Shown here one piece after another: positions 20,103 to 38,430 of a stretch of 64,000 nucleotides of DNA. Location: positions 3,596,001-3,660,000 of the forward strand of contig NZ_CP042431.1 in the NCBI RefSeq assembly GCF_007970185.1, written 5' to 3'. Every line of letters starts with the position of its first letter. Position 1 is the first letter of the stretch. This DNA is from Pseudobacter ginsenosidimutans (GTDB lineage: Bacteria; Bacteroidota; Bacteroidia; Chitinophagales; Chitinophagaceae). A program made the position numbers and the translations under genes. The notes below the pieces were generated by a model. It was given only the letters and a program-made list of their open reading frames with translations. It was not told the DNA's origin and did not search any database.

Positions 20103-20133
20103 TTTGGAATCATCAAAAGGTTGAATACATTTA
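20103..20133 (+). promoter_or_regulatory. Bacteroidota-type promoter of the GntR regulator gene
   Basis: TTTG at 20103-20106, a 19-bp spacer, then TACATTTA at 20126-20133 (7 of 8 to TAnnTTTG). The predicted start site falls inside the ATAG-repeat operator that begins 5 bp after the -7 box. The same geometry recurs upstream of susC at 24909-24939. Confidence 0.65.
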
Positions 20134-20137
20134 CACA

Positions 20138-20156
20138 GTAGGATAGAATAGTACAG
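20138..20156 (+). promoter_or_regulatory. Candidate operator of the PUL regulator (autoregulation)
   Basis: Four repeat units end in AG at a strict 5-bp period: TAG (20139-20141), ATAG (20143-20146), ATAG (20148-20151) and ACAG (20153-20156). It shares TAGGATAG-N-ATAG with the site at 24944-24962 and has the same offset from its -7 box. Position over the start site suggests repression of the regulator-symporter-glycosidase unit by its own first product. Confidence 0.6.
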
Positions 20157-20173
20157 TTAAAAGATTGTTTGCT

Positions 20174-21190
20174 ATGCAGAATATTTATGAGCAGGTCCGG
20201 GAGCTGGAAAACATCCAGGGCCTGTCAAAGCACGAACAACTGGTACAGGGTATCATCAACGCCATCAACGATAAACTGATCCAACGCGGAGACATGCTGC
20301 CTTCCGTGAACAATTTCATAAAAGAGCTGGGATTCGCCCGCGAAACCATTGCCAAGGGTTACAAGGAACTGGTGAGCAGGGGCATCGTTGAAAGTAAGAA
20401 CCGTATTGGTTTTTACGTGGCCCGCGAGAATACGGAGAATAACCTTCGAATTGCACTCATCATCTTCGCATTCGACAGTTTCCAGGAAGTGTTCTACAAA
20501 ACATTTCGCGACAACCTGGGCGAACCTGCCCATATCGATATCTTTTTCCATCACAACAATATCGATGTGCTGGAAAGTATAGTAGCAAGTGTAAAAGGGA
20601 AATATGGCATGTACGTGGTGGCGCCCATTCCGCACAAGCGCACCGCCGGTATTCTCAGCACACTTCCGATGAACAAATTCCTGATGATCGACCGTTACCA
20701 GAAGCTGGAAGAAGAGTTCAGCTATGTGGTGCAGGAATTCGAAAAATCTTCCTATGCCGCTTTTGCCGAGCTGGCTCCCGCCATCAGGCGTTTCAAAGGC
20801 ATGATCCATTACCATCGCCCTGCATCGGATACGCCGATCGAGATACTGGACGCGTACAAGAAATTTGTGAAGAATTTCAAGATCAACAGCGTGATCCGAA
20901 CAGAATATATTCCCGGCTCCATCGAGAAAGGATATGTGTATTTCACTATCAACAATGCAGAGCTCTGGCAGATGCTGAAAGACGCCAAGGCAAAGGGTTT
21001 CAGGCTGGGAAAGGATGTAGGCATCCTCAGTCATAACGATGAGGTGGTGAAAGAGATCATCTTTGATGGTATCACCACCTACTCAACAGATTTTTCCATT
21101 ATGGCGGAAAAGGCTGCTTCGTTTGTGCTGCACCGTGAAAAAGTGCAGGAAGTGATTCCGACCGTTCTCCTGAGAAGGGGATCCTTATGA
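20174..21190 (+). CDS. GntR-family regulator with LacI-type sugar-sensing domain
   Basis: A 338-residue regulator from the ATG at 20174; the frame opens three codons earlier at TTG. Residues ~15-80 are a GntR winged helix-turn-helix ('QRGDMLPSVNNFIKELGFARETIAKGYKELVSRGIVESKNRIGFYV'-type block, seen at the start of the protein). The rest resembles the periplasmic-binding-protein sensor of LacI-type regulators ('RIALIIFAFDSFQEVFYKTF', 'MYVVAPIPHK', 'GKDVGILSHNDEVVKEIIFDGITTY'). It leads an operon with a symporter 10 bp downstream and a glycosidase after that, so a sugar released by the PUL is the likely effector. The repeated ATAG operators at this promoter and at susC are its probable sites. 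Confidence 0.88.
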   Translation: MQNIYEQVRELENIQGLSKHEQLVQGIINAINDKLIQRGDMLPSVNNFIKELGFARETIAKGYKELVSRGIVESKNRIGFYVARENTENNLRIALIIFAFDSFQEVFYKTFRDNLGEPAHIDIFFHHNNIDVLESIVASVKGKYGMYVVAPIPHKRTAGILSTLPMNKFLMIDRYQKLEEEFSYVVQEFEKSSYAAFAELAPAIRRFKGMIHYHRPASDTPIEILDAYKKFVKNFKINSVIRTEYIPGSIEKGYVYFTINNAELWQMLKDAKAKGFRLGKDVGILSHNDEVVKEIIFDGITTYSTDFSIMAEKAASFVLHREKVQEVIPTVLLRRGSL

Positions 21191-21200
21191 TTGCTTTATT

Positions 21201-22802
21201 ATGAATCTGACCATACTACTCAGCTTCCTTTTTGTAACGGTTGCGGCTGCCCTTGTTTCCATTTACGTTACGCGCCGTAAAAAGCAGCAGCAAACGCCTG
21301 TTGGCTTTTACCTGGGCAATCGCAGCCTGGGCTTCTGGATGATCGGCAGTTCCATGTTCCTCACCAATATGAGCGCCAACCAGTTCATAGGGGAGAATGA
21401 GTTCGTATATACCACCAACATGTCTGTGATGGCCTGGGGCATGAGTTCCGTACTGGCCATGCTGCTTGTTGCGGAATTCCTCATGCCGATGTATCTGCGC
21501 ATCGGGGCGGTGACCACACCAGATTTCCTGGCAAAAAGATTTGATGTGCAAACGCAGCGCATCGTCAGTATCATCTTCCTCCTTGGATATTTCGTGAATC
21601 TCATCCCAACCGTGTTGTATGGATGCGCGGTGGCTATCAATGGCATCTTTCATGTGGACAGCTGGCTGGGCATCAGTTATTTTTCTGCCATACAACTGAT
21701 TGTGCTGGTAGTTGGCGTGGTGGGCGCTTTGTACAATGTGCTCGGTGGCCTGCGGGCCATAACCATCACGGATGTGGTGCAGGGTATAGGTATGCTGATA
21801 GGTGGCAGTATGATCGTGTATTATGGTTTCAGGTTTTTGGGCGATGGCGATGTTTGGGAAGGCGTACGCACACTCTCAGTTGCGCATAAGGATCACCTTA
21901 ATGCCATCGGCGGACCGAAAGATGTATTGCCCTTCAGCACCATCTTCACGGGGATGCTGCTGGTGAACATCTATTACTGGGGCATGGAACAGTACATTGT
22001 ACAGGAAGCCCTGGCATCGAAGAACCTGGCGGAAAGCCAGAAGGGTATCTCACTGGCGGTGGTGGGAAAGTTATTTGCACCACTGTTGCTGAATGTTCCG
22101 GGGTTGATTGCCGTGCATCTTTATCCCAACCTTGAAAATACTGCCACCGCTTTTCCGCGGCTGGTGAGTGATATCCTTCCTCCTGTATTCATCGGCCTCG
22201 TGGCGGCAGTAGTGTTTGGTGGCGCCCTCAGCACTTTCAATGCAGGGCTCAACAGTACAGGCACATTGTTTACGATGAACCTTTACAAGCCCTGGCTGGA
22301 ACGGAACGGCGCAAAGGCCGATGAGCGAAAACTGTTACGCAACGGCAAGATACTGCAGGTATGTGTAACGATACTGGCCATCATCTTTTCTCCTTATATC
22401 ATGTATTTCGAAGGAGGTTTTTACAATTACCTGCAAAAAGTGTCGAGCTTTTTCAGTGTGCCTGTTTTCACCATCATGGTGATCGGGCTGCTCACCAAAA
22501 GAGTGCCGCCACTGGCAGCGAAAGTGGGCATCCTGTTCTTTGTTACGGTGTATACAGCCACGCAATTCCTTTTCGATTTACAATTGCATTACCTGCATGT
22601 ACTGGCCATCCTGTTCCTGGTCACTTCCGGGATCATGCTGCTGATAGGCAGGTTGAGACCGATGGAAAGCCCTTTCCAGCTACCCCGGCAGGCAGCAGTG
22701 GATATTGTTCCCTGGAAGAGAAGGCACCTGTACTATGCGATCCTGCTGGCTTTGATGGTGGGAATGTTCATACTTTTTTCACCGCCGGGCATTGCAGGCT
22801 GA
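21201..22802 (+). CDS. Sodium:solute symporter family (SSS) sugar transporter
   Basis: A 533-residue integral membrane protein with about 13-14 hydrophobic helices across its length and no signal peptide. Early motifs 'GFYLGNRSLGFWMIGSSMFLTNMSANQFIGENEF' and 'VLGGLRAITITDVVQG' are characteristic of SGLT-like SSS transporters, and 'FGGALSTFNAGLNSTGTLFTMNLYKPW' matches the conserved later helix. It would carry a monosaccharide or small glycoside across the inner membrane with Na+. Being 10 bp after the GntR gene and 35 bp before a clan GH-D glycosidase ties it to the PUL; galactose or fucose are reasonable candidate substrates but not demonstrated. Confidence 0.9.
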   Translation: MNLTILLSFLFVTVAAALVSIYVTRRKKQQQTPVGFYLGNRSLGFWMIGSSMFLTNMSANQFIGENEFVYTTNMSVMAWGMSSVLAMLLVAEFLMPMYLRIGAVTTPDFLAKRFDVQTQRIVSIIFLLGYFVNLIPTVLYGCAVAINGIFHVDSWLGISYFSAIQLIVLVVGVVGALYNVLGGLRAITITDVVQGIGMLIGGSMIVYYGFRFLGDGDVWEGVRTLSVAHKDHLNAIGGPKDVLPFSTIFTGMLLVNIYYWGMEQYIVQEALASKNLAESQKGISLAVVGKLFAPLLLNVPGLIAVHLYPNLENTATAFPRLVSDILPPVFIGLVAAVVFGGALSTFNAGLNSTGTLFTMNLYKPWLERNGAKADERKLLRNGKILQVCVTILAIIFSPYIMYFEGGFYNYLQKVSSFFSVPVFTIMVIGLLTKRVPPLAAKVGILFFVTVYTATQFLFDLQLHYLHVLAILFLVTSGIMLLIGRLRPMESPFQLPRQAAVDIVPWKRRHLYYAILLALMVGMFILFSPPGIAG

Positions 22803-22837
22803 CAAAATATTTCATCTAAACACCTGAACTGAATTTT

Positions 22838-24844
22838 ATGGCAAACAAAAGATCGATCACCTGGACATTTTGTTGTTTGTTTTTTTCCGTTGTATCAGAG
22901 GCGCAACAACTGCTGGAAATTCCCATCGGGGATAACTGTAAGATCGTTTACAAACTCGACAAGGGCCAGTACGATATTTTCTGGAATGGAAAGATCATTG
23001 TGCAGGATGCCTATGCCTCATACCAGGCAGACAAAGCCGGCGATACCCGCAAGGGAGGAAAGATCAGTTACCATATCGGAGACATGAAGACCAACCTGGG
23101 AAAAACGAAACTCTACAATCTGCAATTCGAAAATGATCCATCGATGACGCAGTTGTTCTATGTGCTGCAAGGAAAGGGACAGTTCATAACGCAGATGGTC
23201 ATTCGCAATGCAGGGCCGGTAAGCTCGGTATCACCACTGGTGACGGACAATCTTAACTGGGTGCAGGAAGGAGATAACCGCGCGCTCTTTGTTCCTTTCG
23301 ATAACGATATGTGGGCAAGATACAATGCAATGCCCCTGGCAACTGCAGCATTCAATGGCAGCGAGCTGGGAGCAGTGTACAATGCAGATGATAATAAAGG
23401 ACTGGTGATCGGGTCTCTGGAGCAGGACGACTGGAAAACAGGCTTCCTGCTGAGATCCGGCGGCGATAATAAAGCTGTACTTGAACTACGGTCTGGCTTC
23501 ACCGATAGTACCATCACGCATGATGTGATCCCGCATGGGAAAGTATTGCCTGTTGATGGCAGGGTGTATTCTCCCAAAATCCTCATCAGTCTGAGTGAGG
23601 ACTGGCGTGATGGCATGGAGATTTTTGCGCAGCAGAACAGAAAACTGCATGCACGTTCCATTGCTAACTGGAAACGTGCTACGCCAATGGGATGGAACAG
23701 CTGGGGCGTACTGAAAGAAAAGATCCGTTTCGATCAGGCCATCCGCGTGGTGGATTTCTTTGCCGACAGTCTCAGGGGATTCAGGAATGCAGACCAGACA
23801 TTGTTCATCGATCTGGATGCTTTCTGGGACAATTTCACTACCCGGGGTATTAACGGAGATGTGAGCAGGCTGCAGGAATTTGTAGCCCATTGCAAAAAGA
23901 AAGGACTGAAGCCTGGCATTTACTGGACGCCATTCGCCGACTGGAGTAAGTCCGATGGAAAAGTGGAAGGATCCGATTATTCTTATGTGGAAACCTGGAC
24001 AAAACAGAATGGCCGTATGCTCGATATCGATGGCGGCCGTGCGATGGATCCCACGCATCCTGCCACGCAGAAGCGCATCCAACATACCATCAATAAGATG
24101 AAAGCGCTTGGTTTCGAAATGATCAAGATCGATTTCCTGGGTCATGGTTGCCAGGAAGCCGATCGTTTCTATGATCCATCCGTTACCACCGGAATGCAGG
24201 CTTTCAAAAAAGGAATGCAATTCCTGGATAGTGTTTTGGACGATAAGATGCTGGTGTATGCGGCCATCTCGCCCAATATTGCTACTGCACGCTATGTGCA
24301 CATGCGCCGCATTGCATGTGATGCCTGGAGCAGTCTCGACAATACCGAATATACTTTGAACAGCACCGGTTATGGCTGGTGGCAATCGCATCTTTATGAT
24401 TTTGTGGATGCGGACCATGTGGTGTTTGCATCTGAGCAGGATGGTGTGAACAGGGCCAGGCTTGCATCTGCGCTGGTGACAGGTTCCCTGATCACAGGCG
24501 ATGATTATTCCTCTCACGGAAAATGGACAAACACTGCCAGAAAATTATTACAGAACAAAGCGCTGTTACAAATTGCAGCGAACGGAAAGAGCTTCCGTCC
24601 GCTTCGCGGCAATACAGGAAACAGGGGAGTGGAGCAGTTCTATCGTATCGATGGAAAAAAACTGTACATCGCTCTGTTCAATTATGGCAACGCTGATCAG
24701 CAGATCAGTATTCCTGCAGCTATACTGAATAAAGTCAGCAACAAATATTGTAAAGAACTTTTCTCGGGAGAATCAGGTCCGCTCAACCCGGGAGCAACCC
24801 TTCATGTGCCCGCATCTGATGCACGGATCTATGAAATCAAATAG
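22838..24844 (+). CDS. Clan GH-D glycosidase (alpha-galactosidase-like, GH27/GH36-related)
   Basis: A 668-residue exported enzyme (signal peptide to about residue 22). An N-terminal beta-sandwich of ~270 residues precedes a TIM barrel opening with 'TPMGWNSWG' (residues ~282-290). The likely nucleophile is Asp432 in 'MIKIDFLGHG' and the acid/base Asp495 in 'RRIACDAW', matching by position the KYD and RxxxD motifs of GH27. A small C-terminal beta domain follows. Motifs differ from canonical GH27 (no cysteine after the nucleophile), so specificity may be alpha-galactoside or a related alpha-linkage. It is the third gene of the regulator-symporter operon, and a REP-like hairpin lies 13 bp after its stop. 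Confidence 0.82.
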   Translation: MANKRSITWTFCCLFFSVVSEAQQLLEIPIGDNCKIVYKLDKGQYDIFWNGKIIVQDAYASYQADKAGDTRKGGKISYHIGDMKTNLGKTKLYNLQFENDPSMTQLFYVLQGKGQFITQMVIRNAGPVSSVSPLVTDNLNWVQEGDNRALFVPFDNDMWARYNAMPLATAAFNGSELGAVYNADDNKGLVIGSLEQDDWKTGFLLRSGGDNKAVLELRSGFTDSTITHDVIPHGKVLPVDGRVYSPKILISLSEDWRDGMEIFAQQNRKLHARSIANWKRATPMGWNSWGVLKEKIRFDQAIRVVDFFADSLRGFRNADQTLFIDLDAFWDNFTTRGINGDVSRLQEFVAHCKKKGLKPGIYWTPFADWSKSDGKVEGSDYSYVETWTKQNGRMLDIDGGRAMDPTHPATQKRIQHTINKMKALGFEMIKIDFLGHGCQEADRFYDPSVTTGMQAFKKGMQFLDSVLDDKMLVYAAISPNIATARYVHMRRIACDAWSSLDNTEYTLNSTGYGWWQSHLYDFVDADHVVFASEQDGVNRARLASALVTGSLITGDDYSSHGKWTNTARKLLQNKALLQIAANGKSFRPLRGNTGNRGVEQFYRIDGKKLYIALFNYGNADQQISIPAAILNKVSNKYCKELFSGESGPLNPGATLHVPASDARIYEIK

Positions 24845-24857
24845 CAGCGTGTACCCA

Positions 24858-24881
24858 GTCGCTCGCCGGGAGGCGAGCGAC
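24858..24881. repeat. REP-like palindrome, copy 1
   Basis: GTCGCTCGCC (24858-24867) and GGCGAGCGAC (24872-24881) make a perfect 10-bp stem with loop GGGA. The core CAGTC-R-CTCGCCGGGAGGCG is shared with the palindrome at 61578-61621. It lies 13 bp after a stop codon, as REP elements do. It lacks an immediate T-run, so it is not a simple terminator. Confidence 0.6.
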
Positions 24882-24908
24882 AGCCACAGTTCGCGTTCTT
24901 CACATTTT

Positions 24909-24939
24909 TTTGGCAGATCGGATAATTCTCATATCTTAG
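24909..24939 (+). promoter_or_regulatory. Bacteroidota-type promoter of the susC unit
   Basis: TTTG at 24909-24912, a 19-bp spacer, then TATCTTAG at 24932-24939 (7 of 8 to TAnnTTTG). The leader is ~95 nt to the susC ATG. The spacer length and operator offset are identical to those of the regulator's own promoter. Confidence 0.65.
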
Positions 24940-24943
24940 TGGT

Positions 24944-24962
24944 ATAGTATAGGATAGTATAG
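24944..24962 (+). promoter_or_regulatory. Candidate operator of the PUL: four ATAG units at 5-bp period
   Basis: ATAG occurs at 24944-24947, 24949-24952, 24954-24957 and 24959-24962, starting 5 bp after the -7 box and so covering the expected start site. A further related element on the other strand, ATACTATCATACT at 24981-24993, could be an inverted half-site. Matching architecture at 20138-20156 makes the GntR protein the likely ligand-responsive repressor. Confidence 0.65.
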
Positions 24963-24994
24963 ATGGAGCGACCACCGGAAATACTATCATACTG

Positions 24995-25015
24995 CGGCAG
25001 GGCCAACCCCTGCCG
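24995..25015 (+). other. Leader hairpin upstream of susC
   Basis: CGGCAGGG (24995-25002) pairs with CCCTGCCG (25008-25015) around a 5-nt loop, 23 bp before the susC ATG. There is no T-run. It may stabilise the leader or affect translation; no role is shown. Confidence 0.4.
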
Positions 25016-25038: not shown

Positions 25039-28000
25039 ATGAAAATCAGATTTGCTTGCTTGCGCTTCCGGAAGCGTTTGCCCTACCCCTTTCTGGCATT
25101 TCTTCTTTTATCCCTTTCTCTTTTTTCATTTTCATTACAGGCAGATGCGCAATCCAACGGTGGGTTGAGCGGCTATGTTATGGACAGTACAACCCGGCTG
25201 CCCATCAACGGCGTGTCAGTAGTGATCAAGGGAACAAGACAGGGAACCACTACAGACAAATCCGGTGTTTTTCACCTGGACATCTCCGGTAGTCAGGCAT
25301 TGCTTGAATTCTCCTTTGTTGGATACAAGTCCAAAGAGCTGGTGGTGGCGAAAGGGAAAGCGGCTACCGTTTATCTTTCTACTATCATAGACACTTTCGG
25401 CGCGGTGGTGGTTACTGCCTTCGGCCGTAAGGAAAGAAAGGAGGCAGTGGTTGGATCGGTTACGTCTATACAACCGGGTGAGCTCAAGATCCCCGCCAGT
25501 AACCTCACCAATGCGCTGGCCGGTAAGATTGCCGGTGTGATCGGCTTCCAGCGCGGAGGCCAGCCGGGTATGGACAATTCCCAGTTCTTCATCCGCGGCG
25601 TTACCACACTTGGTTATAGTAATAGTCCACTCATCCTCGTAGACAACGTTGAGCTTACCGCCAATGACCTGGCCAGGTTACAGGTGGATGATATCGCCAG
25701 TTTCTCCATCCTCAAAGATGCGAGTGCTGCCGCATTATACGGTGCACGCGGCGCCAACGGCGTGATACTCGTCACAACAAAAGAAGGTAAGGCCGGCAAA
25801 GCAAAAGTGGAGCTGCGTGCCGAAACTGCTATTTCCGCACCTACTAAAAGCATCAAGCTGGCGGACCCGGTAACGTATATGCGCATGTACAATGAAGCCG
25901 TCACTACCAGAACACCTGGCGTTGGAAAATACTATCAGCCCAATGAGATCATCGGTACACAGAAGAACCTGGAAGGCGCTGGTGGTATCTATCCCATCTT
26001 ATATCCTGCCGTGGACTGGATGGACGCTATCTTCAAAGACCAGACACAAACCTATCGCGCCAATTTCAGTGTGAGTGGTGGCAACAACCTCGCAAAATAT
26101 TATATCGCTGGTTCCTATTCGAGAGACAATGGTATCCTGGAAATGAACCCTGTGAACAATTTCAATTCAGGAATGAAATTCGAGAATTACCAGCTTCGCG
26201 CCAATACCAGTATCAAAGCCACTTCCACAACGGAAGTAGGCGTTCGGCTCTGGGGTAATTTCAACGAATACATGGGGCCGATCAGCAACCAGGGCGGCGG
26301 ATTTGCAACAGACCTGTACTCACAGGTACTGCACTCGATCCCCGTTGGCTTCCCTGCTTACTGGCAGCCAGACAGCGCCAACAGGAACACAAAACATATT
26401 CTCTTTGGTAACAGGATTGATGCCAATAGTCAGCTTCAGTCCAATCCCTATGCATCACTGATGCGTGGTTACAAAACTTTCTCCGAGTCCAGGATCTCCG
26501 CACAGTTCGAAGTGAACCAGAACCTGAAGTTTATCACACCCGGACTGACATTCTTCGGCATGTTCAGCACCAACCGTTATTCTTATTTCGATGTGAGCAG
26601 GTCTTACAGCCCATTTTATTATGATGTACAACGGGCTACAGTAGACGAAAAAACCGGAGCGTACAGGCTGAACTGGCTCAATAACCAGCCAGGGCAGGCA
26701 CAGGAATACCTTTCATACCAGGAAGGACCTAAATGGCTGAATACTTATGTGTACATGCTTGGGCGGCTGGATTACAGCCAGACCTTCGGAGATCATTCAG
26801 TAGGCGGATCGCTTGTGGGTAACCGTCAGCAGACGCTGACCGCTAACGGGAGTGATCTGCAATCATCACTTCCCAACCGGAACCTCGGCGTTTCAGGAAG
26901 AGCCAGTTATTCATACGACAATCGTTATTTTGCCGAGTTCAATTTCGGTTACAACGGATCAGAAAAATTTGCTCCTGCACATCGCTTTGGTTTCTTCCCC
27001 ACTATCGGTGCAGGATGGGTGGTGAGCAACGAAAAATTCTGGAAGGGCAGGGTGAGCGAGATCCTGACCCGCCTCAAATTCCGCGGAAGCTATGGCCTGG
27101 TAGGTAATGATGCCATCGGCGATCCCAAAACACAACGTTTCTTCTACCTGAGTACGGTAGAGCCCAATAATGGTCCGCGTTCCTATTTCGGTACCAACAA
27201 TTCAGTGAGTATGGCCGGAACAGTGATCAAGGCCTATCCAAATCCGGACGTGACCTGGGAAACCTCCCGCAAGAGCAACCTTGCCGTTGAAGCTACTTTC
27301 TTCGATAAACTCAATATCATTGCTGAAGTATACCGTGAGAGAAGATACAATATCCTTGTTTCGCGTGGCTACATCCCCATTACGGTGGGCATAGAATCAG
27401 CTGCGCTGAATAATCTCCGCGCCAACCTGGGTAAGGCCAACTCTGAAGGTTTCGACTTCAGCATCAATTACAGGGAAGATTTCAAGAACGGGCTCTGGGC
27501 TTCTGTGCTCGGCAACTTCACAGCAACGCGCAATAAGGCTGTCCACCTGGAAGAGCCTGAGTATCCCAATGCCTGGAGCTACCGCACCGGAAGGATGATC
27601 AATCAGCCTTTTGGATTCATTGCGGAAAGATTGTTTGTGGATGATAAGGAAGCTGCCAATTCCCCCGTACAGAATTTCGGAGATTTCCTGCCCAGGGGGG
27701 GTGATATCAAATACCGCGATATCAACCAGGATGGTGTGATCAACCAGGAAGACATGGTGCCTATCGGTCTTCCTTCCACGCCGCAGATCATTTATGGATT
27801 CGGCTTCTCCGTTGGTTATAAGAATTTCGACATGAGTGCCTTCTTCCAGGGATCGGCCAGGTCTTCTTTCTTCATCGATCCAACTGCCCGTACTGATTTC
27901 GATTACGGCATTTTCGGGACAGCTCCTTTTGCCAACAACGCGCAGATCCTGCAGGCTTATGCAGACAATCACTGGTCTGAAGAAAACCAGAACCTCTATG

Positions 28001-28287
28001 CGCTCTGGCCCCGCCTCTCCACCTACGAGATCCAGAACAACCAGCAGACCAGCACCTGGTGGTTGCGCAATGGCAGTTTCATTCGTTTGAAATCAGTGGA
28101 AGCAGGTTTTACATTTCCGAAAAGATGGAGCAATGCGATCTATCTCAGCAATATGAGAATCTACTTCAGCGGTCTGAACCTGCTTACTTTCAGCAGCTTC
28201 AAACTCTGGGATCCCGAGCTGGCCGGCAATGGCTTTGCCTACCCGGTACAGAAAGTATTCAATGTCGGTTTGAAACTTGATCTGTAA
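25039..28287 (+). CDS. SusC-type TonB-linked outer membrane transporter
   Basis: A 1082-residue SusC protein: signal peptide to about residue 38 (..SLQADAQ), a carboxypeptidase-regulatory-like domain (~43-115, 'GYVMDSTTRLPINGVSVVIKG'), a plug with 'FIRGVTTLGYSNSPLILVDNVEL' and the SusC hallmark 'KDASAAALYGARGANGVI', then a ~830-residue beta-barrel. It lacks an STN domain, unlike the other SusC in this window, in agreement with control by a cytoplasmic GntR regulator rather than sigma/FecR. It would import oligosaccharides with the SusD protein encoded 47 bp downstream and is the first gene of the large PUL transcription unit. Confidence 0.96.
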   Translation: MKIRFACLRFRKRLPYPFLAFLLLSLSLFSFSLQADAQSNGGLSGYVMDSTTRLPINGVSVVIKGTRQGTTTDKSGVFHLDISGSQALLEFSFVGYKSKELVVAKGKAATVYLSTIIDTFGAVVVTAFGRKERKEAVVGSVTSIQPGELKIPASNLTNALAGKIAGVIGFQRGGQPGMDNSQFFIRGVTTLGYSNSPLILVDNVELTANDLARLQVDDIASFSILKDASAAALYGARGANGVILVTTKEGKAGKAKVELRAETAISAPTKSIKLADPVTYMRMYNEAVTTRTPGVGKYYQPNEIIGTQKNLEGAGGIYPILYPAVDWMDAIFKDQTQTYRANFSVSGGNNLAKYYIAGSYSRDNGILEMNPVNNFNSGMKFENYQLRANTSIKATSTTEVGVRLWGNFNEYMGPISNQGGGFATDLYSQVLHSIPVGFPAYWQPDSANRNTKHILFGNRIDANSQLQSNPYASLMRGYKTFSESRISAQFEVNQNLKFITPGLTFFGMFSTNRYSYFDVSRSYSPFYYDVQRATVDEKTGAYRLNWLNNQPGQAQEYLSYQEGPKWLNTYVYMLGRLDYSQTFGDHSVGGSLVGNRQQTLTANGSDLQSSLPNRNLGVSGRASYSYDNRYFAEFNFGYNGSEKFAPAHRFGFFPTIGAGWVVSNEKFWKGRVSEILTRLKFRGSYGLVGNDAIGDPKTQRFFYLSTVEPNNGPRSYFGTNNSVSMAGTVIKAYPNPDVTWETSRKSNLAVEATFFDKLNIIAEVYRERRYNILVSRGYIPITVGIESAALNNLRANLGKANSEGFDFSINYREDFKNGLWASVLGNFTATRNKAVHLEEPEYPNAWSYRTGRMINQPFGFIAERLFVDDKEAANSPVQNFGDFLPRGGDIKYRDINQDGVINQEDMVPIGLPSTPQIIYGFGFSVGYKNFDMSAFFQGSARSSFFIDPTARTDFDYGIFGTAPFANNAQILQAYADNHWSEENQNLYALWPRLSTYEIQNNQQTSTWWLRNGSFIRLKSVEAGFTFPKRWSNAIYLSNMRIYFSGLNLLTFSSFKLWDPELAGNGFAYPVQKVFNVGLKLDL

Positions 28288-28334: not shown

Positions 28335-30245
28335 ATGAAAATCATCATCAAAATATTTCTCGCCGGCTGCACCCTGGTCCTTTTTCAACGATGCAGCAAA
28401 TACCTCGATGTAACGCCGGACAATGTGGCTACACTCAACAGTTCCTTCACCAATGCCAATGAAACGCAGGCCTACCTGTTCGGTTGCTACGCCAACCTGC
28501 AGGCCCTTGCGGATGTTCGCAGGAATGCAGGTTTCACCGCTTCAGGGGAAATGTTCTTCCCTACCGATCTGGCGGATAAGACAACGCTCGGCGGCATTGG
28601 AGGCGATGGCGGCTTCAACCTCATGCGCGGATTACAAAATAGTCTGAACCCCATCCACAATTTCTGGGATGGTTACAATATGGGCGTGAAATTGTATGAG
28701 AGCATTCGCATGTGCAATACATTTCTCGACAATATCCATGTACCGCTGGATGTAGAACCTTACAACAGGAAGCGCTGGGCGGCGGAAGCTAAATTCCTGA
28801 AAGCCTATTATCATTACTGGTTATTGCGCATGTATGGACCTATCCCCATTGCAGACAAGGCCATTCCTGTCAACGCCAGTTCAGAAGAAGTTCGCCAGAA
28901 GCAGCAGTCGTTAGATTCCTGTTTCAATTATGTAGTTAAAACGATCGATGAGGCTATAGTTGATCTGCCACCTGCTATTCAGAATGCAGCTACCGAAGCG
29001 GGAAGGATCTCCGGAGCCATCGCGCTGGCCGTGAAAGCAGAAGTGCTGACCACGCAGGCCAGTCCGCTCTTCAATGGCAACCCTGATTATGCGGGCTTCA
29101 AGGGGAAAAATGGAGAAAGTCTTTTTCCTGCAACCTTTGATCCTGTTAAATGGGAACGTGCTGCAGCGGCCTGCAAGGCTGCAATCGATGCAGCAGTGGC
29201 AGCTGGAGCACAACCTTATGAATTGCGCGTTCAGGGAAGCATCATCCATATGTCTGATGAAACAAAACAATTACTCACGCTGCAGGGGGCTTTTGTTGAT
29301 GGGTGGAATCCAGAGCAGGTTTGGACGCTTAACCCGCATTACGGCTGGCAGTACATGACAATGCCACGCGTAACTGCGGAAGCTGCCAGGAATGTATTTG
29401 CAGTTTATTCCAATTTTTCTGTTCCCATTGCACAAAGTGAAATCTTCTATTCAAAGAATGGTGTGCCCATCAATGAAGATCTCAACTTCGATTATGCCAA
29501 CCGTTATCAGTTGCAGGTGGGCGATGAAGCCAATAAATTCTATATCAAAAAAGATTACACCACGGTAGCCGGCAATTTCAATCGTGAGCCGCGTTACTAT
29601 TCCAGTGTTGCCTTCGATGGTGGGGTTTGGTTCGGTTCCGGAAAGACTGATGACCTCAATCCGAATTATGTGAATGCTGTGAATGGTTTTGCTTCTCCTC
29701 CCGATAAGATCCGTTTCAACAATACCGGTTACTGGGCCAAGAAGCTGGTGCATTACCAGTCTACTCCCGGCGACAATTCGGTGTGGGTAGGATATCCCTG
29801 GACATTCATCCGTCTCTCCGGACTCTGGTTGCTTTATGCTGAATGTTTGAACGAGACCGGTGCGCAGGGTGATGCTGTAGTTTGGCTGGACAAAGTAAGG
29901 ACCAAAGCCGGACTTCAGGGAGTACTTACCAGTTGGGCACAGCATTCCCGCAATCCTTCCAAACCCACTACCAAAGATGGTTTGAGGCAGATCATCCACC
30001 AGGAGAGAAGGATCGAGCTGGCATTTGAAGGACAGGCAGGATGGGACCTCCGCCGCTGGAAAGAATTGCAATCTGTGCTCAGCAGACCATTTCAGGGCTG
30101 GTCGGTTTTCAACCAGACTGTAGCGGGATACTACCAGCTTAATACCGTATATCAACCTGTGTTCGGATTGAGGGATTACCTGTTCCCCATACAGGAATAT
30201 GATCTCATCACCAATCCCAACCTGGTCCAAACGCCCTACTGGTAA
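28335..30245 (+). CDS. RagB/SusD family glycan-binding lipoprotein
   Basis: A 636-residue SusD-like lipoprotein (lipobox FQRC, Cys20, then 'SKYLDVTPDNVATL'). Family features include 'NETQAYLFGCYANLQ', 'AEAKFLKAYYHYWLLRMYGPIPI' in the TPR helices, and the C-terminal 'IIHQERRIELAFEGQAGWDLRRWKE' and 'LFPIQEYDLITNPNLVQTPYW'. At 636 residues it is longer than the 477-residue SusD at 5071-6504. It forms the lid of the SusC at 25039-28287 and binds the PUL's glycan at the cell surface. It is followed after 24 bp by two further surface lipoproteins. Confidence 0.95.
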   Translation: MKIIIKIFLAGCTLVLFQRCSKYLDVTPDNVATLNSSFTNANETQAYLFGCYANLQALADVRRNAGFTASGEMFFPTDLADKTTLGGIGGDGGFNLMRGLQNSLNPIHNFWDGYNMGVKLYESIRMCNTFLDNIHVPLDVEPYNRKRWAAEAKFLKAYYHYWLLRMYGPIPIADKAIPVNASSEEVRQKQQSLDSCFNYVVKTIDEAIVDLPPAIQNAATEAGRISGAIALAVKAEVLTTQASPLFNGNPDYAGFKGKNGESLFPATFDPVKWERAAAACKAAIDAAVAAGAQPYELRVQGSIIHMSDETKQLLTLQGAFVDGWNPEQVWTLNPHYGWQYMTMPRVTAEAARNVFAVYSNFSVPIAQSEIFYSKNGVPINEDLNFDYANRYQLQVGDEANKFYIKKDYTTVAGNFNREPRYYSSVAFDGGVWFGSGKTDDLNPNYVNAVNGFASPPDKIRFNNTGYWAKKLVHYQSTPGDNSVWVGYPWTFIRLSGLWLLYAECLNETGAQGDAVVWLDKVRTKAGLQGVLTSWAQHSRNPSKPTTKDGLRQIIHQERRIELAFEGQAGWDLRRWKELQSVLSRPFQGWSVFNQTVAGYYQLNTVYQPVFGLRDYLFPIQEYDLITNPNLVQTPYW

Positions 30246-30269: not shown

Positions 30270-31535
30270 ATGAGTATGACAACCCGATATAAAAAATACT
30301 TAGCGCTGTTGGTGCCGGCAACCATTGCTTTTGTGATGTTCGCCTGTTCCAAAGTAGATGAATACAAAGACATCGTTTCCGGTGATAAAACAAAACCCGG
30401 GACTGTGTCCAATATCAAAGTGGAAAATGGTCCGGGCAGGGCCATCATCACCTATGACCTGCCCAACTCCGAGAACATCCTCTATGTGCAGGCCACCTAC
30501 AAGATCAACGATAAGGTCAGCCGTCAGACCAAATCCTCTTATTATTCCGATACCATCCACGTGAGCGGCTTCGCCAAAAAGCAGGAGTACACTGTTACAC
30601 TGCAAACGGTGAGCAGGGCCAATGTGGTGTCTGATCCGGTAGAAGTGAAAGTGAATCCGGACACGCCGCCTTACCTGATGGCTTTCCCTACAATCAGTAC
30701 CCAGCCTGATTTTGGCGGTATCAATATCAATATAGAGAATCCTGCAAAAGCTGATATCGGAGTGGTGACCATCATGAAGGATCGCATCACCAATCAATTC
30801 GAGATCGTGAACCAGCGATTTACGAAGCTGGAGGATATTGCGTATAGTCTTCGGGGTTATGATACGGTGAACCTGGAATTCGGTATTTACATAACTGATG
30901 ACTGGGACAATGTTTCCGATACCCTGTTCACTACCGTGAAGCCGATATTCGAAAGACAAATGGACAAATCGAAATTCGGTCGCTATGTGCTGCCCACTGA
31001 TGCCAAAACAGGTTTCGGCTGGGAGATCGAAAATATGTGGAATGGCAATACCGGTTCTCCCGGTTACCACACAGAGCAGCCCATCCAGCCACTGGTATGG
31101 CCTGCTGTAGTCACTTTCGATATGGGACAAGCAGCTAAGCTTAGCCGTTATACCATCTGGAACCGTGGCATCGATGGCAGCGGAAACTGGCTCTGGCAGG
31201 CAGGTGCGCCCGTTACCTGGACGCTCTGGGGCAGGGAGACGAATCCAGTTGATGAAACTTTGCCCAATGGTCCCGGCGCTCCCGGCGTTGGCCAGACTTC
31301 TCCCAATGGCTGGATCAATCTCGGTACTTTCAAACTGCCGGCAAAGCCATCAGGCCTGCCCAACCCCGCATACAGCAATTCCGATCTCGAATTCTGGAAT
31401 GCAGGCTTCAGTTACAATTTCAACCTGGAACTGCCCAAAATAAGGTATATCCGGTTCCAGTGCCAGGAGATCGCATCCGGTACCAATAACTTTTTCAATA
31501 TTGCCGAACTGACATTCTGGGGTGATCCCAGGTAA
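30270..31535 (+). CDS. DUF4959/DUF5126/DUF5000-type surface glycan-binding lipoprotein
   Basis: A 421-residue lipoprotein (lipobox MFAC followed by SKVDEYKDI). The N-terminal ~120 residues form a fibronectin-like domain ('PGTVSNIKVENGPGRAIITYDLP', DUF4959 type). A middle beta domain ('TISTQPDFGGININIENPAKADIGV', DUF5126 type) follows, and then a C-terminal discoidin-like (F5/8, DUF5000) domain with 'FDMGQAAKLSRYTIWNR' and 'KIRYIRFQCQEI'. The last is a known carbohydrate-binding fold. The protein is probably a surface glycan-binding partner of SusC/SusD. It lies 24 bp after susD and 17 bp before a second protein of similar plan. Confidence 0.85.
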   Translation: MSMTTRYKKYLALLVPATIAFVMFACSKVDEYKDIVSGDKTKPGTVSNIKVENGPGRAIITYDLPNSENILYVQATYKINDKVSRQTKSSYYSDTIHVSGFAKKQEYTVTLQTVSRANVVSDPVEVKVNPDTPPYLMAFPTISTQPDFGGININIENPAKADIGVVTIMKDRITNQFEIVNQRFTKLEDIAYSLRGYDTVNLEFGIYITDDWDNVSDTLFTTVKPIFERQMDKSKFGRYVLPTDAKTGFGWEIENMWNGNTGSPGYHTEQPIQPLVWPAVVTFDMGQAAKLSRYTIWNRGIDGSGNWLWQAGAPVTWTLWGRETNPVDETLPNGPGAPGVGQTSPNGWINLGTFKLPAKPSGLPNPAYSNSDLEFWNAGFSYNFNLELPKIRYIRFQCQEIASGTNNFFNIAELTFWGDPR

Positions 31536-31552
31536 ACCATAAACGCTGCTAT

Positions 31553-32782
31553 ATGCCTAGAAAATATTCATCACTACTCTGGATAACAGGTCTGGTTTGC
31601 CTGCTTGCCTGTACACAAAAAATGGATGAGTTCAGGGATTACCTCAACAATGAGGAGATCAAATACCCCGGCTCCATTTCAAAAGTTTTCACCAGGCCCG
31701 GCAATGGCCGGCTCGGTATCGGCTGGTCGCCCAGTCCGGACCCTTCCGTTACCAAATACAGGATCTTCTGGAATAATTTCCGTGATTCCGTTGAAGTGAG
31801 CTCCACTTCACACAGTCCCGGAGATACCGTGTACACCATCATCAATAACCTGCAGGAGTACACTTATTCATTTTTCGTGTATTCCTTCGATGCAAAAGGA
31901 AACAAATCCATTCCCGTGGAAGTGCAGAATGCCCGGGTCTATGGCAATTCCTACCAGAACAGCCTGATGAACCGCTATATCAACAGCGGTGATCCGTACG
32001 AGTTCCTTGATGATGAAGGAAAAGAAGTTAAGCTGAATTTTCTCATACCGGATTCCACCAATGCGCTTACTTATCTGCGTTATACCAATACGAATGATGA
32101 GTTGAAAGAAGTGACCCTTCTGCCGGGAGAGAATTCAATAACGCTTCTCGATTTCAAATACGGTACCAAAGTGGCTTACCAGAGTGAATACACCCCTTCG
32201 GAAACAGCGCTGGATTCATTTTCTGTGAACCTGGTGGATACGTTTCCCAATATCGCTTTCACCATCGCCAGGGCAGATAAGAGCCTCTTCAGCGTTGTGA
32301 GTTCATTGCCCAATGATGTGCAGCCATGGGACGGGGGAACCAGTGTGGCTAAATTATGGGATGGGTCTGTAGGGCCACAGGGATGGCCGAATATCTGGCA
32401 CTCTAACGGTGATAAACAGCTGCCGCACCATTTCACTTTCGATATGGGCAGGGGATATCGCCGTCTGCAGAATATCGAGATCACAGGCCGCGACTGCTGC
32501 CACAATCCAACCGAGTTTGAGATATGGGGCATTGCAGACATAACGAATGCCGCCACCAACCTGCCGGGTAATGATCCGGGCTGGAAGGATGAAGCCATCG
32601 CCAAAGGCTGGATCTTGCTGAAAGATGTTACACTCGATAATAATGGCGTTGGCCCTTACAAGGTCGATTTCGCTGCCGGTGTTCCGCAGATCCGTTATAT
32701 CCGCATCCGCGTGAAAAAAGTGGCCAGCGGTGAGAATGCTTACAGCAACCTGAGTGAGGTTACCGTTGAATACAGGAGATAG
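31553..32782 (+). CDS. DUF4998-type surface glycan-binding lipoprotein with discoidin-like domain
   Basis: A 409-residue lipoprotein (lipobox LLAC) opening 'TQKMDEFRDYLNNEEIKYPGSI', the DUF4998 signature, followed by a fibronectin III-like segment ('GRLGIGWSPSPDPSVTKYRIFWNN'). Its C-terminal ~150 residues resemble a discoidin/F5-8 fold ('HHFTFDMGRGYRRLQNIEITGR', 'PQIRYIRIRVKKVASGENAYSNLSEV'), like that of the preceding protein. Tandem surface glycan-binding proteins of this kind commonly follow susD in PULs. Ligand specificity cannot be read from sequence. A ~97-bp gap follows before the enzyme genes. Confidence 0.82.
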   Translation: MPRKYSSLLWITGLVCLLACTQKMDEFRDYLNNEEIKYPGSISKVFTRPGNGRLGIGWSPSPDPSVTKYRIFWNNFRDSVEVSSTSHSPGDTVYTIINNLQEYTYSFFVYSFDAKGNKSIPVEVQNARVYGNSYQNSLMNRYINSGDPYEFLDDEGKEVKLNFLIPDSTNALTYLRYTNTNDELKEVTLLPGENSITLLDFKYGTKVAYQSEYTPSETALDSFSVNLVDTFPNIAFTIARADKSLFSVVSSLPNDVQPWDGGTSVAKLWDGSVGPQGWPNIWHSNGDKQLPHHFTFDMGRGYRRLQNIEITGRDCCHNPTEFEIWGIADITNAATNLPGNDPGWKDEAIAKGWILLKDVTLDNNGVGPYKVDFAAGVPQIRYIRIRVKKVASGENAYSNLSEVTVEYRR

Positions 32783-32879
32783 GATCGGTGGAATCTCCAT
32801 TAATACAACAATAAAATCCATTTACCCGAATGCGTATACAGGTGAACTTTGTTGACCTTGTTGCCTCAATTAACGAATT

Positions 32880-35195
32880 ATGAAACGAACGATTGGTCTT
32901 GTTGCGATCCTGTTTTCCCTGACTGCATCCGCGCAGCAGCGTCCCCTTCAGTTATGGTTCGATAAACCTGCCGCACAGTGGGAAGAAACGCTTCCCCTGG
33001 GTAATGGCCGCCTGGGTATGACGCCCGATGGCGGAGTGGAAAAAGAGAAAATTGTACTGAACGATATCACCATGTGGTCCGGCAGTCCGCAGGATGCCAA
33101 TAATTATGAAGCCTACAAGCAGCTGCCTGCCATCAGGCAATTGCTCGCGCAAGGGAAAAATGATGAAGCGCAAAAACTGATCGATAAAAGTTTTATCTGT
33201 CTCGGGCCCGGATCCGGCGGCCCTCAGTGGGGCTGCTTCCAGATGCTGGCCGATCTCAATATCAGGTACAGCTATGGTGGCAATACTGCAACGCCTGTTG
33301 AATACCGCCGCTGGTTATCGCTGGACAGCGCCATTGCCGTAACAAGTTTCACTTTGAATGGCGTTCAATACAAAAGAGAATATTTCACCAGTTTCGGAGA
33401 TGATGTGGACCTTATCCGAATCACCGCCAGCAAAAAAGGAGCTGTGAGTTTTGAGGTGGGGATCAGTCGCCCGGAAAGAGGGGAGAGCTCAATAAGCGGT
33501 CAGTCATTGCTGTTAGCTGGTCAGCTCAACAATGGAACCGACGGAAAAGGTATGCAATACCTCACTCAGGTGAAAGTACTGAACACAGGCGGTAAGCAAA
33601 ATTTGAAAGGAAAAGAACTGGTGGTGGAAGGCGCCGATGAAGCGCTGATCTTCGTTTCCACAGCTACGGATTTTCGGAATCCGCAATATAAAATGCAAGT
33701 GGAAAAGAATATGCGGACTGCGTTGCTGAAATCCTACGCCGTACAAAAGCAGACCCATGTTCGCAATTTCAGGAAACTGTTCGGTCGTGTAGCGGTTGAC
33801 CTGGGCGCCGGCACTGCTGAAACACTTACTACAGACAAACGCCTGGCGGCTTATTACAAACAACCTGAACAGGACAAATCATTACCCGTACTCTTTTTGC
33901 AATTCGGAAGATATCTCAGCATCAGCAGCACACGCGTTGGATTGCTGCCCCCGAACCTGCAGGGCCTCTGGGCCAACCAGGTGAATACGCCCTGGAATGG
34001 TGATTATCACCTGGACGTGAACGTGCAGATGAACCACTGGCCTGTTGAAATGAGCAATCTCTCAGAACTGAACCTCCCGCTCACCGAACTGGTGCGTGGA
34101 TTGGTGAAACCCGGAGAACGCACTGCCAAAGCATATTACAATGCCGATGGCTGGGTAGCTCATGTGATCACGAATGTATGGGGCTGGACCGAGCCCGGAG
34201 AAAGCGCCAGCTGGGGCGTTACCAAATCCGGATCGGGATGGCTCTGCAATAATCTCTGGGAACATTATGTTTACACAGATGATCTGGCCTACCTGAAAAG
34301 CATCTATCCTATCCTGAAAGGATCAGCGCTTTTCTATAAGAGCATTTTAGTGAAAGACGAGAACTCAGGATGGCTGGTGACTTCACCTTCTTCCAGTCCG
34401 GAGAATTCTTTCCTCCTGCCCAATGGCAATCACGCCAGCATTTGCGTGGGGGCTGCCATCGATAACCAGATCATCCGCGAGTTGTTCAACAATATCATTA
34501 CAGCTACTGAAAAATTGAAGATCGATAAGAATCTTGCTGATACTTTACGCGCGCAATTGAAACAATTACCACCAGCAGGTATCATCTCACCCGATGGCCG
34601 CATACAGGAGTGGCTGGAAGATTACAAGGAAACAGATCCGCAGCATCGTCATATTTCGCATCTCTATGCATTGTATCCCGCTAATCTCATCACTGCCAAT
34701 GGCACGCCCGAACTGGCGGCAGCGGCAAAGAAAAGCCTGGAAGTGAGAGGAGATGATGGTCCCAGCTGGGCCATCGCCTACAAGCAATTGTTCTGGGCAA
34801 GATTGCTGGATGGTAATCGTGCTTTCAAACTGTTGCGCGAATTACTGAAGCCAACGCTTCGTACAGATATCAACTACGGCGCCGGTGGCGGCGTGTATCC
34901 AAATCTTTTCTCCGCCGGCCCGCCCTTCCAGATCGATGGCAATTTCGGCGCAGCAGCAGCCATAATGGAAATGCTGATGCAATGTCATGCCGGCTATGTG
35001 GAATTACTGCCCGCCATTCCTGATCTCTGGAAAGCGGAGGGAACGGTGAAAGGATTGAAAGCGAGAGGAAACCTTACCGTCGATTTCGAATGGAAAAATG
35101 GACAGGTAACAAAATATAAGATCAGTTCACCCACCACCAAAAAGGTGACGCTGAAAGTGAACGGACAGCTTAAAACCATCAGTACCGGGAAATGA
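32880..35195 (+). CDS. Glycoside hydrolase family 95 (alpha-L-fucosidase or alpha-L-galactosidase)
   Basis: A 771-residue exported GH95 enzyme (signal peptide to residue ~18). The opening 'WFDKPAAQWEETLPLGNGRLGM' and 'LNDITMWSGSPQDANN' are diagnostic. By analogy with the characterised fucosidase AfcA, the acid is Glu508 (PSSSPEN), and the water-activating residues map to the 'DYHLDVNVQMNHW' block (His377, Asp379, Asn381) and Asp686 (QIDGNFG). The first of the usual Asn pair appears to be Asp here. The family removes terminal alpha-1,2-L-fucose or the C6-hydroxylated L-galactose; the retained His377 favours fucose, from memory of family work. Its stop overlaps the next ATG by 4 bp. Confidence 0.92.
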   Translation: MKRTIGLVAILFSLTASAQQRPLQLWFDKPAAQWEETLPLGNGRLGMTPDGGVEKEKIVLNDITMWSGSPQDANNYEAYKQLPAIRQLLAQGKNDEAQKLIDKSFICLGPGSGGPQWGCFQMLADLNIRYSYGGNTATPVEYRRWLSLDSAIAVTSFTLNGVQYKREYFTSFGDDVDLIRITASKKGAVSFEVGISRPERGESSISGQSLLLAGQLNNGTDGKGMQYLTQVKVLNTGGKQNLKGKELVVEGADEALIFVSTATDFRNPQYKMQVEKNMRTALLKSYAVQKQTHVRNFRKLFGRVAVDLGAGTAETLTTDKRLAAYYKQPEQDKSLPVLFLQFGRYLSISSTRVGLLPPNLQGLWANQVNTPWNGDYHLDVNVQMNHWPVEMSNLSELNLPLTELVRGLVKPGERTAKAYYNADGWVAHVITNVWGWTEPGESASWGVTKSGSGWLCNNLWEHYVYTDDLAYLKSIYPILKGSALFYKSILVKDENSGWLVTSPSSSPENSFLLPNGNHASICVGAAIDNQIIRELFNNIITATEKLKIDKNLADTLRAQLKQLPPAGIISPDGRIQEWLEDYKETDPQHRHISHLYALYPANLITANGTPELAAAAKKSLEVRGDDGPSWAIAYKQLFWARLLDGNRAFKLLRELLKPTLRTDINYGAGGGVYPNLFSAGPPFQIDGNFGAAAAIMEMLMQCHAGYVELLPAIPDLWKAEGTVKGLKARGNLTVDFEWKNGQVTKYKISSPTTKKVTLKVNGQLKTISTGK

Positions 35196-36406
35196 AATTG
35201 CACTGCCTGATATTATCCGTATGCCTGGTGATGTTTACACAGGCCCAGGAAGCAAATCGTAGTAAACTGGCGCCATTGCCTCCAATGGGATGGATGACCT
35301 GGAACCTGTATGGAGAACGGATCGATGAAAAGCTGATCCGCAGCATCGCCGATGCCATGGATTCTACTGGCATGATAGCAGCGGGCTATAAATACCTGAT
35401 CATCGATGATGGCTGGCAGGGAGGAAGGGACAAGAAGAACAATATCATCGCTGATCCCGTAAAATTCCCTTCCGGCATTAAAGCGCTCGCCGATTATGTT
35501 CATGCAAAAGGATTGAAGCTGGGCATTTACTCCGATGCAGCTTCGCTTACCTGTGCAGGTTATACAGCAAGCCTGCATTTTGAGGAACAGGATGCCAGAA
35601 CATTTGCTTCCTGGGGCATTGATTACCTGAAATACGATTACTGCAATGCGCCGGAAGATTCAGGTACGGCAAAGGCCCGCTATACAAAAATGGCGCAGGC
35701 ATTGTCGGCCTCCGGACGCGATATCGTCTTCGGCATCTGCGAATGGGGTGGACGTAAGCCCTGGTTCTGGGCGGCCAATGCAGGCGGAAGCGTTTGGCGC
35801 ACCACAGGTGATGTGCGGGACAAATGGAAAAAGGAACAGGGAAAAGACGGGGAAGGGATCATGGATATTTACAAGGTGAACGTATCGCTTCATGCGTACG
35901 CAGGTACCGGCCACTGGAACGATCCCGATATGCTGGTGGTAGGATTATACGGCGCCAAAGGGCCTTCTTCGGATCTTGGCGGCATTGGTTGTTCAGATAT
36001 CGAATATCAAAGCCAGATGAGCCTCTGGAGTATGATGGCAGCTCCCCTTATCGCCACCAATGATATCATGGCCATGAATGAGGCCACCAAAAAAATACTG
36101 CTCAACCCTGAAGTGATTGCCATCAACCAGGATCCGGCCGGCAACCAGGGACAGCTGATCAAAAGCGATACCAGCTTCGATCTGATTCTGAAGCCCCTTC
36201 AGAACGGGGATATGGCGTTGGCGATTTTGAATAAATCCGGGATTTTACAATCTTACAGTTTCGCGGGCGGAACAATGGGCCTCCCTTCCGGCTTCACGGT
36301 GCGCGACTGCTGGAAGCAGCGCATTGTTGGAAAAAAGGACAAATGGACCGGCTCCATCCAACCGCATGAAACAAAATTATTCCGGCTGATAAAAAAACAA
36401 CAATGA
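35192..36406 (+). CDS. GH27 alpha-galactosidase
   Basis: A 404-residue secreted enzyme of GH27 (signal peptide to residue ~19). The barrel opens with 'LPPMGWMTWNLYGERI', with 'YLIIDDGWQGGRD' on strand two, the nucleophile Asp149 in 'YLKYDYCN' and the acid/base Asp207 in 'WRTTGDVRDKW'. Length and motif order match classical GH27 retaining alpha-galactosidases, with a short C-terminal beta-sandwich. It is translationally coupled at both ends: its ATG overlaps the GH95 stop by 4 bp and its stop overlaps the next ATG by 4 bp. It would release terminal alpha-galactose in the periplasm. Confidence 0.94.
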   Translation: MKLHCLILSVCLVMFTQAQEANRSKLAPLPPMGWMTWNLYGERIDEKLIRSIADAMDSTGMIAAGYKYLIIDDGWQGGRDKKNNIIADPVKFPSGIKALADYVHAKGLKLGIYSDAASLTCAGYTASLHFEEQDARTFASWGIDYLKYDYCNAPEDSGTAKARYTKMAQALSASGRDIVFGICEWGGRKPWFWAANAGGSVWRTTGDVRDKWKKEQGKDGEGIMDIYKVNVSLHAYAGTGHWNDPDMLVVGLYGAKGPSSDLGGIGCSDIEYQSQMSLWSMMAAPLIATNDIMAMNEATKKILLNPEVIAINQDPAGNQGQLIKSDTSFDLILKPLQNGDMALAILNKSGILQSYSFAGGTMGLPSGFTVRDCWKQRIVGKKDKWTGSIQPHETKLFRLIKKQQ

Positions 36407-38385: not shown

Positions 38386-38430
38386 CACAGAGGGCCGGAA
38401 AGATCCAACACATATCTATCACTGAATATT

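Follow-up and report, generated by a model that had tools for sequence, protein, structure and literature searches.

Gene organization of the locus

Within a 64,000-nucleotide stretch of the Pseudobacter ginsenosidimutans genome (contig NZ_CP042431.1, positions 3,596,001 to 3,660,000; hereafter the window, in whose own numbering all positions are given), two predicted promoters of a sugar-degradation locus are each followed by an array of short direct repeats, trinucleotides of the form YAG at a 5-bp period. One promoter precedes a gene for a regulator of the GntR family, the other a susC gene. The array recurs at matching promoters in other Bacteroidota that have the regulator, and on comparison of these sequences it is most likely the regulator's binding site. 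The features of the locus are collected in Table 1.

The gaps separating the regulator, symporter, and 668-aa genes are only 10 and 35 bp, and promoter 1 therefore probably drives all three. Predicted promoter 2 serves susC, susD, the genes for the DUF proteins, GH95, the GH27-like enzyme and the esterase, and GH36. With promoter 1 serving three genes and promoter 2 those from susC onward, each apparent operon of the locus is thus headed by one array. No Pfam family above the cut-off and no NCBIfam match was found for the 668-aa protein, which contains a GWNSW stretch typical of α-galactosidase-like enzymes; it is possibly a divergent glycoside hydrolase (GH) group. The enzymes of the locus point to side chains of a galactose- or fucose-like type. 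Directly beyond the locus, on the opposite strand, a LytTR response regulator and a histidine kinase are encoded (40777-42566).

Table 1. Features of the locus, in window coordinates.
Feature	Position	Strand	Basis
Predicted Bacteroidota-type promoter 1 (regulator operon), TTTG-N19-TACATTTA	20103..20133	+	Sequence; similar box before array in orthologues
Putative operator array 1, TAGGATAGAATAGTACAG, four YAG units, 5-bp period	20139..20156	+	Sequence, conservation
Regulator, GntR winged helix and LacI/periplasmic-binding-like sensor; proposed repressor	20174..21190	+	Pfam, PDB profile, AlphaFold2, Foldseek
Sodium:solute symporter, probably in regulator operon	21201..22802	+	PF00474 4.2e-45; NF007790 2.4e-183
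668-aa protein, probable last gene of operon 1	22838..24844	+	Pfam/NCBIfam scans
Predicted promoter 2 (susC operon), TTTG-N19-TATCTTAG	24909..24939	+	Sequence, box scan
Putative operator array 2, TAGTATAGGATAGTATAG, four TAG units, 5-bp period	24945..24962	+	Sequence, conservation
Foldable susC leader containing the array; accessory, not general	24945..25015	+	Folding z -5.18
SusC-like TonB-dependent transporter, first gene of operon 2	25039..28287	+	Plug, CarboxypepD_reg
SusD-like lipoprotein	28335..30245	+	SusD_RagB 1e-45
DUF4959/5126/5000 and DUF4998/5000 proteins, GH95, GH27-like (Melibiase_2), SASA esterase, GH36	30270..40656	+	Pfam

The two promoters carry the same repeat

Direct reading of the first site places TTTG at 20103-20106, then 19 bp, then TACATTTA at 20126-20133, with YAG at 20139, 20144, 20149, and 20154. 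At the second, TTTG (24909-24912) is followed with the same spacing by TATCTTAG (24932-24939) and by TAG at 24945, 24950, 24955, and 24960, and the array has an additional, degenerate fifth unit, TGG, at 24940. The promoter form common to both is TTTG-N19-TAnnTTNN followed by four YAG units at a 5-bp period, and the end of the box is separated from the end of the first unit by 8 bp in each. The common geometry and the 5-bp-period repeat that a preliminary description of this DNA had reported at two sites were thereby confirmed. Judged from the boxes, the arrays would lie where positions +1 to about +20 of the transcripts are expected.

The boxes alone (TTTG-N19-TAnnTTWG, at most one mismatch) matched the window 11 times against 9.2 expected, which is not significant, and box geometry was rejected as a signal because by itself it is not above chance there. 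Four AG-N3 units alone were weak evidence as well, with 3 matches against 1.3 expected. The longer pattern TATAG-N-ATAG-N-ATAG-N-ATAG, allowing up to three mismatches, gave four overlapping matches in the window, all of them at the two sites, where 0.03 would be expected. Across the whole 7.8-Mb genome AGNATAGNATAGNAYAG was matched twice, both times at these sites, and its reversed control not at all. No further sites in the genome were seen with two mismatches at this sensitivity, the search returning 16 matches versus 40 for the reversed control.

The array recurs at orthologous promoters

One regulator scan, from which the best 80 of 101 relatives were kept as loci, was supplemented with loci from other genome searches. 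In Chitinophagaceae, Sphingobacteriaceae, Flavobacteriaceae, and Saprospiraceae, the array was found upstream of regulator orthologues as well as of susC, GH, or symporter genes. Arrays of at least four units were catalogued from the fetched loci (1.85 Mb, redundant, and selected by regulator or by pattern). Of 105 distinct catalogued arrays, 90 are followed on the same strand by a gene whose product resembles a window protein, this being SusC for 49, the regulator for 33, the 668-aa protein for 7, and the symporter for 1; the remaining 15 lie before another open frame (6) or before none (9). A TAnnTT box is present within 60 bp upstream of 81 of the 90 assigned arrays, and in 54 of these 81 the gap between box end and first unit is 3, 4, 5, or 8 bp; the gap is 9 in six of the seven arrays preceding a 668-aa-type gene. 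In aligned arrays the unit consensus is ATAGN and the last unit is often ACAG. As the search rule required AG with T or C in front, the free observations here are the spacers, the preceding A, and the ACAG ending. Catalogued arrays have 4 to 6 units, and many Flavobacterium sites have 3.

For a count by locus, groups were assigned from record titles, two metagenome-assembled genomes with a looser title being put with the Chitinophagaceae. A 4-unit array was present somewhere in the fetched locus in 24/24 Chitinophagaceae-type, 14/15 Sphingobacteriaceae, and 2/2 Saprospiraceae loci. Among Flavobacteriaceae, 9/24 loci had a 4-unit array and 23/24 had three TAG units. The reversed control was found in 0/80 loci at four units and in 11/80 at three, and periods of 4, 6, 7, 8, and 10 at four units gave 4 locus matches altogether.

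Upstream of regulators at least 60% identical to that of the window, 33 of 38 regions contain at least three YAG units at period 5, and 28 contain at least four. The same regions gave none at periods 4, 6-9, or 11 and six at period 10, which is partly a harmonic of 5. TAG was the outstanding triplet, occurring three times at period 5 in 29 of the 38, followed by ATA in 13 and any other in at most 1. Antisense arrays were absent from all 38. The repeat is kept at the loci of the closer orthologues, and the lack of repeats at orthologous loci, named in the preliminary description as a refutation, was thus not found among these.

Arrays were also found away from the locus. Seven extra ones in regulator-bearing genomes, either on a separate contig or at a distance of 20 kb to over 1 Mb, lie before other susC genes whose products are 26-79% identical to the window SusC (L149-L154, and L156 at 20 kb), and these therefore argue for a factor acting in trans. 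L155 has a promoter-type array on the minus strand near 5036, at a distance of 9 bp from the 407-aa open frame downstream, which has no match among the window proteins and is possibly a further regulon member. No clear gene follows the arrays at L147 and L148.

Upstream of the regulator gene at four Aquimarina loci (L102, L106, L110, and L112; regulators 44-46% identical), a different common stretch with the palindrome TTTAAGCTTAAA was seen; the TAG array there and Arg77 in the wing of the regulator are both absent. The operator type may have switched in the Aquimarina relatives.

Co-occurrence of array and regulator

We then compared the distribution of regulator (E≤1e-60) and array pattern (TAGNATAGNATAGNAYAG) over 394 genomes of the family, of which 47 have the regulator and 42 the pattern. 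With regulators at least 60% identical, a line drawn after the table had been seen, both were present in 33 genomes, the regulator only in 2, the array only in 9, and neither in 350 (Fisher p 1.9e-37, which, like the values below, overstates independence because the genomes are related). Counted by genus in the same order the numbers were 16/1/7/77 (p 2.4e-12), and with any regulator at E≤1e-60 they were 34/13/8/339 (p 9.0e-31). Within the genus of the window itself, the array accompanies a close regulator in three genomes and is absent from one with a 54% and two with only 28-29% identical regulators.

The contexts of all nine genomes having only the pattern were inspected. Six (G178, G183, G300, G386, G266, and G066) contain perfect pentamer tracts outside susC and regulator promoters, that of G178 being 10 bp upstream of an open frame of 492 aa, and the matches in G353 and G355 have no link to a promoter. 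The ninth, G117 (L158), has a promoter-type array before a susC gene whose product is 64% identical to that of the window, possibly an orphan site or the site of a different factor. Among 395 genomes of the class, the regulator was found in 5, a sister pattern in 6, and both in 2; the sister pattern occurred in 4 of 390 class genomes without the regulator, and none of the four, read by eye, has the promoter geometry.

The regulator protein

The N-terminus of the regulator matched the GntR winged helix (PF00392, 38.8 bits against a cut-off of 27, 7.5e-10), which places it in the GntR family. This match begins at residue 21 and is preceded in the AlphaFold2 model (pLDDT 89.5, pTM 0.74) by a single short helix of residues 2-10. 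When the regulator sequence alone was searched against the PDB with phmmer, no relative reached E≤0.001. A 45-row profile matched GntR winged helices in the PDB, including that of Bacillus subtilis AraR, and weakly LacI-type sensors (2qu7, 3k4h, and 3tb6). When the model was searched with Foldseek, the LacI-family proteins RbsR, CelR, LacI, and PurR were top matches (E 1e-12 to 1e-10), and as modeled the C-terminal domain is a LacI/GalR-like sensor.

Of 99 distinct regulators, residue 77, in the wing, was compared in all but two, whose loci were short. The locus contained an array of at least three units for 74/82 proteins with Arg77 and for 1/15 with another residue, a contrast that comes mostly from one clade; a tie between Arg77 and recognition of the array is thus a lead that these sequences suggest. 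It fits better than residue 57 of the recognition helix (E or K), which was rejected as a determinant of the array, as the two Saprospiraceae loci combine K57 with arrays.

The susC leader

The preliminary description had placed an inverted half-site at 24981-24993. The complementary sequence is there. The susC leader is predicted to fold into two strong hairpins in succession, and in the first of them this sequence pairs with the TAG array, which is thereby sequestered. Among non-redundant leaders, z<-2 was reached by 7/42 of susC and 2/31 of regulator genes. A complement of the array downstream of it was found at p<0.05 in 9/42 susC leaders (mean z -0.68) and in 1/3 of the few GH and symporter leaders; regulator leaders showed no excess (1/31, mean z -0.01), and upstream of the array there was no enrichment (mean z 0.01 and -0.20). 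The half-site was consequently rejected as a general part of the operator, the complement being enriched in a minority of susC leaders only. The hairpin is an accessory, local addition and not the shared element.

Discussion

The array is common to families that share the regulator, at matching promoters, which argues that it is probably the regulator's site. The sequences show the arrays, the position that they keep, further cases at other susC promoters, and a distribution that follows that of the regulator. From these we infer exactly where transcription starts, that the regulator binds directly and cooperatively, that it represses, and that the locus is inducible, and we consider it probable that both arrays are operators at which the protein encoded at 20174-21190 would bind cooperatively at half-turn spacing, repress both operons, and be released by a sugar. 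Several winged-helix copies would each read a 5-bp unit (ATAGN) every half turn, with one dimer or one protomer as the reader of each unit, and the protomers or dimers would cooperate from alternate faces of the DNA. Coverage of roughly +1 to +20 would block transcription of the regulator-symporter and susC operons, and a substrate-derived sugar bound in the LacI-like domain would free the protein from DNA and induce the locus.

Repression by this protein had been suggested in the preliminary description. That suggestion held insofar as the element is common to the regulator's own and the susC promoters, is conserved, and tracks a regulator with a GntR domain and a LacI-like fold; repression itself stays a proposal. 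Binding to one face of the helix, suggested there too, is not supported, since a 5-bp step turns the helix by about 170 degrees and successive units alternate faces. A higher-order protein array is plausible given the half-turn precedent in the GntR member NanR.

By analogy, Escherichia coli NanR is the closest known mechanism. NanR occupies its operator, (GGTATA)3, which lies downstream of the polymerase-binding site, as three cooperating dimers, each in an asymmetric pose and displaced from the next by about half a turn, and it binds less well in the presence of Neu5Ac (PMC8012715). Both systems have a GntR-family protein, a repressor in NanR, and, on the downstream side of the polymerase site, repeats at roughly half-turn spacing, and the cooperative assembly and sugar effector of NanR are what we propose by analogy here (PMC8012715). 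They differ in that NanR has an all-helical FadR-type C-terminal domain, whereas the model here has an alpha/beta LacI-like fold; in the repeats, three of GGTATA for NanR and 3-6 units of ATAGN at 5 bp here; and in the 32-residue N-terminal extension that gives NanR its cooperativity, which was not found here, where the profile match starts at residue 21. Because NanR shows half-turn binding by a GntR protein, our proposal is a repressor that acts cooperatively, as NanR does, but has another type of sensor.

Several observations weigh against this proposal. A plain DNA operator does not require orientation, and the orientation of the arrays is constantly sense. The array might be the site of some other factor found together with the locus. 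G207 and G236 have regulators at least 60% identical and lack the 4-unit pattern. Regulators below about 55% identity are mostly without the array. In the 55-60% band, 9/30 promoters have three units in sense and only 1/30 has four, and 8/30 have antisense arrays, equal to the count of eight Pedobacter arrays facing a divergent susC gene. Three-unit arrays fall to 1/11 sense and 1/11 antisense at 49-55%, and to 1/16 and 0/16 at 40-49%. Where the best regulator is 49-55% identical, 11/12 genomes have no pattern and the match in the other, G353, is not at a promoter; wider flanks of six of these genomes place the regulator close behind another gene in five, and L184 has a free upstream region with no array. 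Aquimarina relatives, with regulators 44-49% identical, have the array in 0/15 loci at four units and 1/15 at three. G117 has its array despite regulators only 29-30% identical, and the sister pattern is missing from three genomes of the class whose regulators are 36-44% identical.

Some other trans-acting factor inherited with the locus, for instance the neighboring LytTR two-component system or a distant activator, would be an improbable owner of the array. The regulator and its linked genes are inseparable by co-occurrence, and G117 combines array and susC in the absence of a close regulator. However, the array stands directly upstream of the regulator gene itself in 33/38 closer orthologues, and arrays stand at distant susC genes of regulator-bearing genomes.

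Slightly less probable again is an RNA element, in which UAG-NN repeats at the mRNA 5' end would be bound by a TRAP-like protein or would shape the fold of the leader. A 5-nt UAG interval is similar to that of TRAP sites, the 90 gene-assigned arrays are all in sense direction (the assignment demanded the same strand), the 38 regions upstream of closer regulators contain no antisense array, and the susC leader of the window folds strongly. TRAP-like control was nevertheless rejected, as PF02081 has no match in the genome while the B. subtilis positive control was matched; moreover, the hairpin is not general, and the co-occurring factor is a winged-helix protein.

That the array is a simple-sequence repeat of no regulatory meaning, a slippage product or phase-variation tract, is most improbable, for although the six pentamer-tract genomes have no regulator, such pure tracts are absent from susC and regulator promoters, where arrays are mostly imperfect, vary at the N of the units, often end in ACAG, hold their position relative to the -7 box, and are conserved across families.

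Other known systems resemble the proposed repressor and its operator in part. The AraR subfamily, typified by Bacillus AraR, likewise joins a GntR winged helix to a GalR/LacI-type C-terminal domain (excerpts of PMC4494728). The regulator gave weak profile matches to both the AraR winged helix and the AraR sensor (4egy and 3tb6). AraR operators are palindromic, whereas the conserved element here is a direct repeat. We know of no such array for FucR (BT1272) or ManR (BT2103) of Bacteroides. These are also GntR regulators of Bacteroidota sugar genes, listed in the excerpted PMC3878776 for monosaccharide utilization, and are compared here by description and not by motif. In excerpted accounts, the MocR subfamily (GabR, TauR, and PdxR) has direct-repeat sites too, but with boxes several helix turns apart, and Streptomyces BldC has direct-repeat winged-helix sites but is MerR-like, with 9-bp repeats one turn apart. 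Direct repeats are known for the GntR members NanR, FarR, and NagQ and the MocR group (excerpts of PMC4494728 and PMC5320631). Among the open-licence literature matches listed, we found no description of the array, of a period-5 GntR operator, or of a Chitinophaga or Flavobacterium site, and within these the array appears to be undescribed while direct-repeat GntR sites are known.

More tentatively, we suggest that a Bacteroidota class of GntR/LacI repressors may read 3-6 units, one winged helix to each, as an alternate-face helical filament over the start site, with array length setting promoter strength or induction threshold and Arg77 tied to recognition. If true, this would be a polymeric direct-repeat operator, whose 5-bp unit is to our knowledge the shortest known for GntR proteins.

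Work on Bacteroidota polysaccharide loci has dealt mostly with hybrid two-component, SusR, and ECF regulators. The array provides an easily recognized putative operator for a group of sugar regulators, found here in four Bacteroidota families, by which the regulons of such loci would become readable from sequence. It would also add a second, independent example of direct repeats bound at half-turn spacing by a GntR protein, here one whose sensor domain is of another type. The natural series of 3 to 6 units in the array is suited to the question of how copy number relates to cooperativity.

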